Of a DNA stretch of 64,000 nucleotides, positions 5,964 through 63,751 are shown piece by piece. The DNA is from Levilactobacillus suantsaii (GTDB taxonomy: Bacteria; Bacillota; Bacilli; Lactobacillales; Lactobacillaceae): positions 62,001-126,000 of the forward strand of contig NZ_QXIL01000006.1 in assembly GCF_004115745.1 (NCBI RefSeq). The letters run 5' to 3'. The position numbers were made by a program, and so were the translations under genes. The notes beneath the pieces were generated by a model. That model made no database searches. It saw only the letters and a program-made list of their open reading frames with translations, and was not told the DNA's origin. Every line of letters begins with the position of its first letter. Positions within the stretch are counted from its first letter, which is position 1.

Positions 5964-6314
5964 GTGGCAAAAAAGGATGAAAAACGGGCACGGCACGCTA
6001 TTATCGTCGACATGAACGATTTCTTGATGGATTACGCTGCTGGTAAATTAGGCCAACAAGCTAACCTCGCCCAACAAGTCGCGGCAGCCGGACAACCTGA
6101 TTTGACCGGTTTAGATGACTTATTCAAGGATGAGGGGGTCGGCCGGCGTACCAAGTACGAAGAGGTCGCCACGGGATTTTTACGAGATAAAGACAACGTC
6201 AACGCCGTCGAAGAATCCAACGACGTAAAGGCCGCCAGCACGGAACTGACGAAAGAAGCAATTGCGTACCTTGGTAGCCATCCCAACGAGTTTAACAAAT
6301 GGGAAGAAGCTTAA
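5964..6314 (+). CDS. Hypothetical acidic protein, 116 residues
   Basis: I do not recognise this family. GTG start at 5964, with GAGGTG (5951-5956) seven bases upstream. The protein opens with a basic stretch (AKKDEKRARH), then a hydrophobic/amphipathic helix (IIVDMNDFLMDYAAG), then an acidic, helical, soluble C-terminus ending NEFNKWEEA. There is no signal peptide, membrane helix or cysteine. It is monocistronic, facing away from pstS and followed by a strong terminator. Confidence 0.75.
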   Translation: MAKKDEKRARHAIIVDMNDFLMDYAAGKLGQQANLAQQVAAAGQPDLTGLDDLFKDEGVGRRTKYEEVATGFLRDKDNVNAVEESNDVKAASTELTKEAIAYLGSHPNEFNKWEEA

Positions 6315-6389: not shown

Positions 6390-6596
6390 CTACTGCCAAT
6401 TCCACAGGTCAGCCTTCATTTTAGTAGCAATAATCTTGGTCAAAAAATCGATAAACTGGTCCGGCATGTATTGAGCGGCTTCAAAACTGGTTGGTTCGCC
6501 GTCCACCGTCGTGATCATCGTCCCCTCATGAGTCAGGGTCAACCCATACTTGGGCGCCACCACCGTACAGAGCCGGTCGACTTGCTGTTCGTTCAT
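6390..6596 (-). CDS. Hypothetical protein, 68 residues
   Basis: Unrecognised small protein (MNEQQVDRLCTVVAPKYGL... ending MKADLWNWQ). It has two predicted amphipathic helices around a short strand region (MITTVDGEPTS). A GTG immediately before the ATG at 6596 is an alternative start; AGGGGGC is about 10 bases upstream of the ATG. It ends beside a terminator shared with the 116-residue gene. Its upstream neighbour is the HPr-like gene 53 bases away, and the two may be cotranscribed. Confidence 0.6.
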   Translation of the reverse strand: MNEQQVDRLCTVVAPKYGLTLTHEGTMITTVDGEPTSFEAAQYMPDQFIDFLTKIIATKMKADLWNWQ

Positions 6597-6648: not shown

Positions 6649-6912
6649 TCAATAACAATACTTATCTTTAGCGAGTTGCTGGTGAATGGCCGCAGCCAGG
6701 TCCCCTTCATCGGGCCCCTCCGCCACGATTTGCATGAATTCACCACCGTGATTGCTAAGTTCCGCAATGCCCGGCTGTTTGCGGGGATCAAGTTCGATAT
6801 CCCGAATACGAATCATAACATTACCCGTGTACTTTTGACAGACTTTTTGCAAAATGGGGGCTTCGTCTGTCGCTGGAATCGTCGGGTATAATGGGAGTCC
6901 AATTGTCTTCAT
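6649..6912 (-). CDS. HPr-like protein lacking the phosphorylation sites
   Basis: The 87-residue length and order of elements match the HPr fold: helix at 15-28 (EAPILQKVCQKY), strand NVMIRIRD, loop KQPGIAEL, strand EFMQIVAEG, then DEGDLAAAIHQQL, which mirrors the HPr C-terminus GADE..A...I...L. The catalytic His15 motif (GIHARPAT in true HPr) is replaced by PTIPATDEA with no His. The Ser46 position reads Gln (KQPG). It therefore cannot be phosphorylated by EI or, at the usual residue, by HPr kinase. Start at 6912, with AGGTGAT at the proper distance. A perfect cre lies 21 bases upstream. Fold assignment is my inference from pattern; function unknown. Confidence 0.6.
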   Translation of the reverse strand: MKTIGLPLYPTIPATDEAPILQKVCQKYTGNVMIRIRDIELDPRKQPGIAELSNHGGEFMQIVAEGPDEGDLAAAIHQQLAKDKYCY

Positions 6913-6932
6913 AGTAATCACCTCATCTTTAT

Positions 6933-6946
6933 TGTAAGCGATTTCA
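6933..6946 (-). promoter_or_regulatory. cre (CcpA) site upstream of the HPr-like gene
   Basis: TGTAAGCGATTTCA fits the cre consensus TGWNANCGNTNWCA at all 14 positions. It lies 21 bases upstream of the HPr-like start codon, in a place where CcpA would block transcription. Confidence 0.65.
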
Positions 6947-7047
6947 CAAGTGAAGCCAACCCCCTTTACACGCTCGCGTCAAAATGACGGCGAACGTGCG
7001 TTCAAAAAAGTATGGTATGATGGGGCTGAGAAACGGAGAAACGCAAC

Positions 7048-9426
7048 ATGCCAATCAAACTTGGGGTGCGCGACTTAGTCGAGTTCACCTTACGAACCGG
7101 CGATCTCGGGACCACCACGAACAGTCAGAATACCGCTTTACTCGGTGCCCAGATTCACCGGCGGCTCCAAAAACAGCGCGGCAACGACTATCAAAAAGAA
7201 TATTATCTGGATCTCCCCCTCACACTGGTCCACCACGACTATCTCCTCCACGGCAGGGCCGACGGGGTCACCCTGCACGACACCACGGCCGAAATCGAAG
7301 AAATCAAAACTTCAGACACCCCGTTTGACCAACTGAGTGCCAATACGTTGACGTTGTACTGGGGGCAAATCAAGCTTTACGCGCACCTGCTCTTTTGCCA
7401 ACTACCCAAGCTCACCGAACTTACCCTGACTTTGACTTACTACCAGACCGACACAGACCAGGTGACTCAGACCACCCAGACCATCGACCCGGAGAGTGCC
7501 AAGGCCTTCTTCCAGCAAGTCATCGATGACTACGTGGCCTGGTTGACCCTCAAGGCCGAATTAAGGGCCCGCCGTGACCCCACGATTCAAAGTTTGACCT
7601 TTCCATACGGGCAGTACCGTCCGGGCCAACGCGAATTAGCCGTAGCCGTTTACAAAACGATTCTCAGTCACCAACGGCTTTTTGCCGAAGCGCCGACCGG
7701 GACGGGCAAGACCATTTCGACCCTGTTTCCCACCATTAAAGCCATCGGCGAAGGCGTCATCCAACGCATCTTTTACCTGACGGCCAAGCAAAGTACCCGA
7801 CGCGTGGCCGAAGAAGCCCTCGACTTAATGGCGACTAAGGGACTCAAGCTCAAGAGCATCACCCTCACGGCCAAGGCCAAGATTCAATTTCCCGAAGAAG
7901 AGAACCTGTTGCCCGAAAACAACCCGTTCATGTTGGGTTACTACGACCGCCTCAAACCGGCGTTACTCGACTTGATTCAACACAACGACCAACTGACTCG
8001 GCCCGTCATCGAACGCTATGCGCGCAAACATACGCTCGATCCGTTTGAATTTCAATTGGACGCTAGTCTCCTTTGCGACGTGGTCATCGGGGACTACAAC
8101 TATCTGTTCGACCCGCAAGTCCACCTTCAGCGGTTCTTCGCCACGGCCGACCCCGAAAACTTCTTTTTGATCGATGAAGCCCATAATTTGGTGGACCGCT
8201 CCCGCGATATGTACTCGGCAGCCATCAGCAGTGCGCCACTCGACGCGCTAATCGACAGCAGTCGTGACGCGACTCAGGCCACTCCTAAGCTACGCCGGCG
8301 CCTGCAAGATCTCCGGGCCACCTTCGATGACGTCAGCGCGCCGCTGCGGGAAAGTCGCCAGACCGACACCACCTTTCTGACGCCGCCGGAAGCCTTCAAC
8401 CACGATCTTAGTCGGCTCATCGAAGCCATCCACGATTGGCTGGCTGACCAAGCCCAAACGCCGTTTACCCAGGCGATTTTGGACTTCTACTTTACGGCCA
8501 TCAGCTACCAACGTATCGGGGAATATTATGACGACACCTACCGGATGCGTTTGACGGTGGACCACACCGGCATCACTTTGAAACAACTCTGCTTGGACCC
8601 CAGTGCCTTTTTGGCTGACAGTCTGGCATTGGGCCATGGCGCCGTGCTTTTTTCCGCCACGCTCTCCCCGCTTGATTACTACCAGACCGTCCTAGGGGGC
8701 GGCCCCAAGAGCCTAGCTTACCGCCTCGAGTCGCCTTTTGATCCGCACCACCAGGGATTGTTCATTACCAATTACATCCAAACGACTTACAAGCAACGCC
8801 AAGCTAACCTGGCCAATATCCTGTTAGCTATCAAAACCATGATCGACAGTCATCAGGGTAACTACCTGATTTTTTTGCCGTCGTACAGTTATCTCCTGAC
8901 GGTTAAACAAGCCTTTAGCCTGGCCTATCCGCAAGTTGCAACGATCGCCCAGGAAGCGCAGATGACCGAAGCGGCACGGCATGATTTCTTAGCGGCCTTT
9001 CAACCGCATCCTAACCAAACCTTAGTTGGCTTTGCGCTCCTGGGAGGCATCTTCGCCGAGGGAATCGACTTGCAAGCTGACCGGCTAAGTGGTGTCGGTA
9101 TCGTTAGCGTGGGGCTTCCTGGAATCAGCCCCGAAAACGACCTGATTCGCGACTATTTCGACCAGCAAGGGCAACCCGGCTTTGCCTTTGCCTACCAATT
9201 GCCTGGGGTGAACAACGTCTTTCAAGCCGCTGGACGCCTGATTCGCGGGGCTAAAGACGTCGGTGTCGTCTTGCTGATGGACCAACGTTTCGCCACCACC
9301 CGTTACACGTCACTTTACCCGCAGCATTGGCAACACTACCAGCGCCTGTTTCGTCCCGAACAATTGCAACCGGCACTCCAACAATTTTGGGCCGGCGTGA
9401 CCAACCCGTTGTCCGGGGAATCCTAA
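7048..9426 (+). CDS. Rad3/DinG-type DNA helicase with N-terminal PD-(D/E)XK-like domain, no Fe-S ligands
   Basis: Superfamily 2 XPD/DinG-like 5'-3' helicase, probably acting in DNA repair. Residues 1-170 look like a PD-(D/E)XK nuclease domain (HGRADGV, EIEEIKTS, GQIKLYAHLL). Helicase motifs follow: Walker A APTGTGKT (about 214-221), DEAH with LIDEAHN (about 374), FSATLSPL, and motif VI QAAGRLIRG (about 725). In relatives with a cluster, three cysteines sit in the ICFPEE-NCDPENCP region; here that region reads KIQFPEEENLLPENNP, and only the fourth (SLLCDVV) remains. The cluster is therefore lost. GGAG is nine bases before the ATG, and the gene is monocistronic. Confidence 0.85.
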   Translation: MPIKLGVRDLVEFTLRTGDLGTTTNSQNTALLGAQIHRRLQKQRGNDYQKEYYLDLPLTLVHHDYLLHGRADGVTLHDTTAEIEEIKTSDTPFDQLSANTLTLYWGQIKLYAHLLFCQLPKLTELTLTLTYYQTDTDQVTQTTQTIDPESAKAFFQQVIDDYVAWLTLKAELRARRDPTIQSLTFPYGQYRPGQRELAVAVYKTILSHQRLFAEAPTGTGKTISTLFPTIKAIGEGVIQRIFYLTAKQSTRRVAEEALDLMATKGLKLKSITLTAKAKIQFPEEENLLPENNPFMLGYYDRLKPALLDLIQHNDQLTRPVIERYARKHTLDPFEFQLDASLLCDVVIGDYNYLFDPQVHLQRFFATADPENFFLIDEAHNLVDRSRDMYSAAISSAPLDALIDSSRDATQATPKLRRRLQDLRATFDDVSAPLRESRQTDTTFLTPPEAFNHDLSRLIEAIHDWLADQAQTPFTQAILDFYFTAISYQRIGEYYDDTYRMRLTVDHTGITLKQLCLDPSAFLADSLALGHGAVLFSATLSPLDYYQTVLGGGPKSLAYRLESPFDPHHQGLFITNYIQTTYKQRQANLANILLAIKTMIDSHQGNYLIFLPSYSYLLTVKQAFSLAYPQVATIAQEAQMTEAARHDFLAAFQPHPNQTLVGFALLGGIFAEGIDLQADRLSGVGIVSVGLPGISPENDLIRDYFDQQGQPGFAFAYQLPGVNNVFQAAGRLIRGAKDVGVVLLMDQRFATTRYTSLYPQHWQHYQRLFRPEQLQPALQQFWAGVTNPLSGES

Positions 9427-19522: not shown

Positions 19523-19736
19523 GCTATCCCGTCCTTTCCATAATCCGGTGTCGGTGACATCGCTTTCAACACCTTTATCATACCAATAAACGTTAAATTA
19601 TGGAAGTAACCATCTGACTTTTCCCCCGCTCAAGTCCCCTGGTTCTTGGTGGCCCTAACCTTTTTAGTCCCCGGAACGGCGCGACTTGTGGTAAGATGTA
19701 GCAAGACTTTACACGATAAGGATGGCGTTATTCTCC

Positions 19737-63722: not shown

Positions 63723-63751
63723 TTGTCAGCGGTTACATAACTTCGTATACT
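63723..63751 (+). promoter_or_regulatory. Promoter of the GcvH-like gene
   Basis: TTGTCA (63723-63728), 17-base spacer, TATACT (63746-63751). The spacer contains GGTTACATAA, also found before the SDR gene at 35900-35909. Confidence 0.75.

Follow-up and report, generated by a model that had tools for sequence, protein, structure and literature searches.

In its textbook form, HPr (PtsH, PF00381) exerts its main roles through two phosphorylation sites. Unlike the HPr-like protein analysed here (HPRL), NPr and FPr are phosphotransfer proteins with an active histidine. Both are paralogues of HPr (PMC2405797), and the HPr fold and paralogy to HPr are common to them and HPRL. Crh of Bacillus and its relatives has the HPr fold without His15, as does HPRL, but keeps Ser46 and is a substrate of HPr kinase (PMC9631020); the HPRL members of the genus Levilactobacillus have neither site, and their docking columns are not conserved. 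Bc1009, from the SigB cluster of Bacillus cereus, is an HPr-like protein that is made under a transcription regulator and controls a sub-regulon (PMC9912610). It is a precedent for an HPr-like protein that is regulated by its production, which for HPRL, too, would be set by a transcription regulator, although Bc1009 is SigB-controlled and its authors consider phosphotransfer (PMC9912610).

HPRL is a diverged paralogue of HPr that has retained the fold. It shares with ordinary HPr its length, the order of strands and helices, Foldseek matches and profile similarity, but it lacks the phosphorylation sites, lies outside the ptsHI operon, carries a cre on its own -10 box and is far more diverged within the genus. 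No description of an HPr-like protein without both phosphorylation sites in these bacteria was found among the matches listed in a literature search that covered mainly non-subscription journals; in the passages covered of a transcriptome study of L. oligofermentans, ordinary ptsH is the only such gene named (PMC4972977). The gene is read on the minus strand from an ATG at 6912 to a stop at 6649 of the window, the whole 64-kb stretch of DNA that was analysed, and the locus has the following features:

6649..6912, minus strand: HPRL, gene of an HPr-like protein of 87 residues with an ATG start, identified by its open reading frame with ribosome-binding site, its orthologues, dN/dS and the HPr fold
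6918..6924, minus strand: ribosome-binding site GAGGTGA, found in 34/34 Levilactobacillus leaders
6931..6936, minus strand: -10 hexamer TACAAT, run into by the cre, in 37/37 orthologues
6933..6946, no strand assigned: cre TGAAATCGCTTACA, a predicted CcpA operator that overlaps the -10 box
6954..6959, minus strand: -35 hexamer TTGGCT with a 17-nt spacer; TTGGCA or TTGGCT stands at 17 nt in 34/34 Levilactobacillus members
6390..6596 (to 6599 in a second reading), minus strand: orf69, a small conserved downstream gene for a 69-aa protein with its start chosen by eye, in 31/31 named loci
7048..9426, plus strand: DinG-like helicase, the divergent neighbour, identified by Pfam/NCBIfam and in the named loci

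The GTG at 6921, given as the start in the list of open reading frames, is an unlikely start codon, and the ATG at 6912 behind GAGGTGA is preferred.

A search of 98 related genomes found HPRL in 34 of the 35 that belong to Levilactobacillus, the window's own genome counted, in one of 24 genomes from other genera of the same family, and in none of 39 from other families. The orthologues within the genus are 47-71% identical to the window's protein. In a second genus of the same family, the gene is present in 3 of 15 genomes, and among 397 genomes of the family and 395 of the order (overlapping samples) whole-length matches were confined to Levilactobacillus and this second genus; the remaining matches were shorter and weak, and the three that were inspected were ordinary HPr. 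The one genus member without HPRL, G013, has the helicase and orf69 adjoining each other. HPRL is under purifying selection, with a median dN/dS of 0.039 (18 pairs with dS of 0.02-1, drawn from 27 sequences of the same length, while 8 of the 35 were left out, seven for length and one as the second-genus member), compared with 0.043 for ordinary HPr (401 pairs). The orthologues together with this low ratio rule out a chance open reading frame or a pseudogene. A plasmid or phage gene was also considered and set aside; HPRL had no match in a plasmid or phage collection at E 1e-3. Mean pairwise identity within the genus is 61% for HPRL (27 sequences) versus 95% for ordinary HPr (n=30).

Kinship to HPr emerges from the family more clearly than from the single sequence, which matches Pfam PTS-HPr with E 0.0062 and 17 bits (gathering cut-off 23), gives a weak match in NCBIfam (E 0.081) and, in the PDB, scores slightly better with a designed thioredoxin (E 0.078) than with HPr (E 0.13). 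The best match of the family profile, A1, to PDB sequences is HPr 1rzr (E 1.5e-4), and 32 of the 35 family members match Pfam PTS-HPr at E up to 0.1. In a genus-wide Pfam search, HPRL was the second PTS-HPr match in 11 of 35 genomes; nine of these matches were above the gathering score, three of these only with neighbours in frame. Alignment with ordinary HPr by hhalign gave a probability of 94.7% and E 6.2e-8 over residues 17-85. The AlphaFold2 model (pLDDT 82.9, pTM 0.69; five models spanning 71.3 to 82.9) has the strand and helix order of HPr, and of its 50 best Foldseek matches ranks 1-40 were titled HPr, Crh or NPr, with TM of 0.70-0.84 for ranks 1-33. An HPr layout had been proposed in a sequence-only reading of this DNA, and it is supported alike by the family profile, by AlphaFold2 and by Foldseek: structure prediction and profile comparison, the check suggested there, returned an HPr-like fold and a PTS-related profile, and not another fold or an unrelated family.

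The same reading had described a phosphohistidine loop without its histidine and a protein of a type different from Crh, and both points are borne out. The loop, PTIPATDEA, occupies residues 10-18. The profile alignment of HPRL with ordinary HPr is ungapped with an offset of one, and in this register Ala14 takes the place of His15, a position extrapolated just beyond the aligned stretch in a loop that takes insertions. The place of Ser46 is taken by Lys45; the earlier statement that the serine is absent therefore stands, but the Gln46 that it had assigned to this position does not. The window's protein has none of His15, Arg17, Pro18, Ser46, Ile47 and Met48. Alignment of homologues, also suggested earlier, showed the loss of both sites to be kept throughout the genus: columns 12-18 contain no His, and columns 45-46 no Ser, in any of 34 Levilactobacillus members. 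His15 and Ser46 are both present at all 30 ordinary HPr loci of the genus that were inspected, of 35 genomes. Thus, not only His15 but, within the genus, Ser46 as well has been lost, which sets HPRL apart from Crh. In 9 of the 34 Levilactobacillus members a serine stands in column 44, directly ahead of the Ser46 position, and in two of the three second-genus proteins it stands at column 45 itself, followed by polar residues that replace Ile-Met. Ordinary HPr reports sugar supply by its phosphorylation, which HPRL probably cannot do.

A perfect cre upstream of the gene had been noted as well, and it holds up: TGAAATCGCTTACA matches TGWAANCGNTNWCA at 14 of 14 positions, 20 bases before the ATG, and a cre recurs in 37/37 orthologues. 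The pattern has four matches in the window (the palindrome counts on both strands), while shuffled windows gave a mean of 0.20 and reached four in 1 of 100 shuffles. Recurrence in all 37 orthologues is stronger evidence than the shuffle statistics, although these are related sequences and not independent events. The best cre has no mismatch in 33 of them and one in the other four (L013, L031, L034 and L035), which lies at the first base in the last three and is a C-to-T change in the CG core in L013 (on the same contig as L056), the orthologue of L. brevis ATCC 14869. Elsewhere in the window, exact matches are found at 19555-19568 and 63724-63737. A promoter scan of the region gave three promoter-like sites, the HPRL promoter among them, where 0.9 were expected; the -35 hexamer is weak in two of the three second-genus members.

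A cre over the -10 box is a classical arrangement for CcpA repression. The window's own genome encodes one CcpA and one HprK above curated cut-offs, so that both features of a CcpA regulon, a cre at the HPRL promoter and ccpA in the genome, are present. It also has one ordinary ptsH (L001), followed by a frame that resembles the start of ptsI. Because the cre lies on the -10 box in all 37 orthologues, CcpA should repress HPRL; and because the HPRL promoter should read the same sugar signal as ordinary HPr, the amount of HPRL is expected to run opposite to sugar supply. With ample sugar, Ser46 of ordinary HPr would be phosphorylated by HPr kinase, CcpA together with HPr-Ser-P would occupy the cre and block RNA polymerase, and little HPRL would be made; when the preferred sugar is low, HPRL would accumulate. 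The carbon signal would then be carried by the amount of HPRL and not by its phosphorylation. The reading that we favour, with moderate confidence, is that HPRL, having diverged from HPr, signals by how much of it is present rather than by phosphorylation and would act on a partner through a new face.

Where that face might lie is suggested by the pattern of conservation. The mean majority share is 0.96 in strand 1, 0.87 in helix 3 and 0.84 in the tail; it is lower in helix 1 (0.71), strand 2 (0.70), strand 4 (0.68) and residues 27-30 (0.64), and lowest in loop 9-17 (0.60), strand 3 (0.58), helix 2 (0.57) and residues 42-49 (0.52). Ten residues are invariant in all 35 rows of alignment A1: M1, I4, G5, I34, G57, G66, D68, E69, L72 and H77. 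The three best conserved segments, which hardly vary, form a candidate binding face. With less certainty than the regulatory steps, strand 1 (MKTIG), helix 3 (GPDE..L...IHQQL) and the C-terminal Cys-Tyr tail may serve HPRL to bind another protein or a second copy of itself, although the fixed residues could be structural instead.

In contrast, the face through which HPr acts on its known partners seems to have been lost. This face is represented here by 15 HPr positions taken as contacts of CcpA, HPr kinase or enzyme I. PMC8016206 also describes Ile47 and Met48 as docking residues of HPr. In HPRL, the mean majority share is 0.52 in the 15 docking columns versus 0.77 in the rest, and random draws, taken over columns irrespective of surface exposure among the 34 genus rows with the second-genus row left out, were as low in 2 of 20,000; among ordinary HPrs of the genus (n=30), these columns have a share of 1.00, against 0.95 for all others. 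Variation at exposed columns is common to all proteins, and the variability of strand 3 (0.58) indicates that variation in HPRL is not limited to the docking face. The place of Arg17 is Asp or Glu in 34/34 genus members, and the places of Ser46 and Ile47 are variable.

These columns bear directly on the proposal, made in the sequence-only reading, of a scaffold or antagonist of CcpA and HPr kinase, and on the related possibility that HPRL relaxes carbon catabolite repression (CCR): it would compete for CcpA against HPr-Ser-P, or for HPr kinase against HPr, in a feedback that leaves other sugar genes open. Such a role would form a double-negative loop, as CcpA is in turn predicted to repress HPRL, and L. 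brevis uses glucose and xylose together, for which relaxed CCR has been proposed (PMC7452873). The one-base mismatch in the cre core of the ATCC 14869 orthologue would be in line with it, and a title in the reference list of PMC7452873 calls this strain catabolite-derepressed; the two together are a lead only, in one of four mismatch cases, and for the three with a first-base mismatch (L031, L034 and L035) we know of no phenotype. The docking columns, invariant in ordinary HPr, are among the most variable of HPRL, and this, with the acidic residue in place of Arg17, argues against an antagonist of CcpA or HPr kinase. We regard relaxation of CCR by competition as unlikely, while an antagonist acting through another face of HPRL is conceivable.

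Homodimerisation, or a metal or redox function, would account for other fixed residues: His77, the Cys-Tyr end and Cys25 would form a site, and the link to carbon would run only through the promoter. His77 is present in 37/37 orthologues, Cys25 in 34/34 genus members, and Cys86 in 30/34 genus members and in all three of the second genus. However, Cys25 is missing from all three second-genus proteins and a serine replaces Cys86 in 4 of the 34 genus members, and we give this explanation a rather small chance. Smaller still is the chance that HPRL mimics His15-phosphorylated HPr, with Asp16-Glu17, near the places of His15 and Arg17, imitating the phosphate and signalling low sugar to a partner able to sense P-His-HPr. 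Column 16 is Asp or Glu in 34/34 genus members and Asp in 3/3 of the second genus, and Glu17 occurs in 28 of the 34; moreover, HPRL is expected at low sugar, when P-His-HPr would dominate. Yet Asp-Glu at a helix start is a common capping pattern too, and loop 9-17 is variable overall and takes insertions.

The neighbours of HPRL are not those of the ptsHI operon but the helicase, orf69, orf116 and pst genes. The order helicase, HPRL, orf69, orf116, pstS is constant in all 31 named loci (29 Levilactobacillus and two Lactobacillus sp.), HPRL also adjoins the helicase in all three second-genus genomes, and the helicase and pst genes are more conserved than HPRL, orf69 and orf116. Of these, orf116 (5964-6314) encodes a conserved protein of 116 residues with no Pfam match and also occurs close by in a genome of the second genus (L036, 41% identity). 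The orf69 product has no Pfam or NCBIfam match; its gene lies within 150 nt of HPRL in 21 of the 31 named loci, and transcription of HPRL may continue into it. Of 30 other genomes searched for the helicase, 18 had it at E up to 1e-100, and among the listed frames, inspected by eye, no diverged HPRL copy stood beside it in 19 loci of these 18 genomes. In one genome of another genus (L136), which lacks HPRL, an orf69-like frame abuts the helicase (by eye), and HPRL may therefore have been inserted between an older helicase-orf69 pair. That HPRL is an accessory of the helicase or of orf69 is most improbable, because the constant gene order and the adjacency in the second genus are outweighed by the helicases that have no HPr-like frame beside them, by G013, which keeps both genes without HPRL, and by the separate promoter with its cre.

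Downstream of HPRL in four loci lies a palindromic, branched structured element (177 positions, L043:6288-6458; also in L042, L044 and L050). A 206-nt stretch of L043 folds with z -4.88, and by eye its outer stem is altered on both sides in L050. It has no Rfam match, and no description of it appeared in the best 10 of 23 literature matches. A covariance model built from the four sequences had matches in 33 of the 35 Levilactobacillus genomes, with at least 47 copies in 17 of them, and in none of 23 genomes of other families; by the same model it is missing from the window's own genome. The element is a high-copy interspersed repeat.

A genus-wide family without either phosphorylation site, in which the old docking face has apparently been given up and another surface is fixed, would show that the HPr fold can be reused as an abundance-coded signal. 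It is doubtful, if conceivable, that HPRL is a phosphorylation-free HPr regulator that converts the state of CcpA into an amount of protein, feeds back on sugar use and partly explains the co-fermentation of glucose and pentose by L. brevis. HPRL is also a specific gene that can be tested for a part in the relaxed control of sugar use reported for that species.
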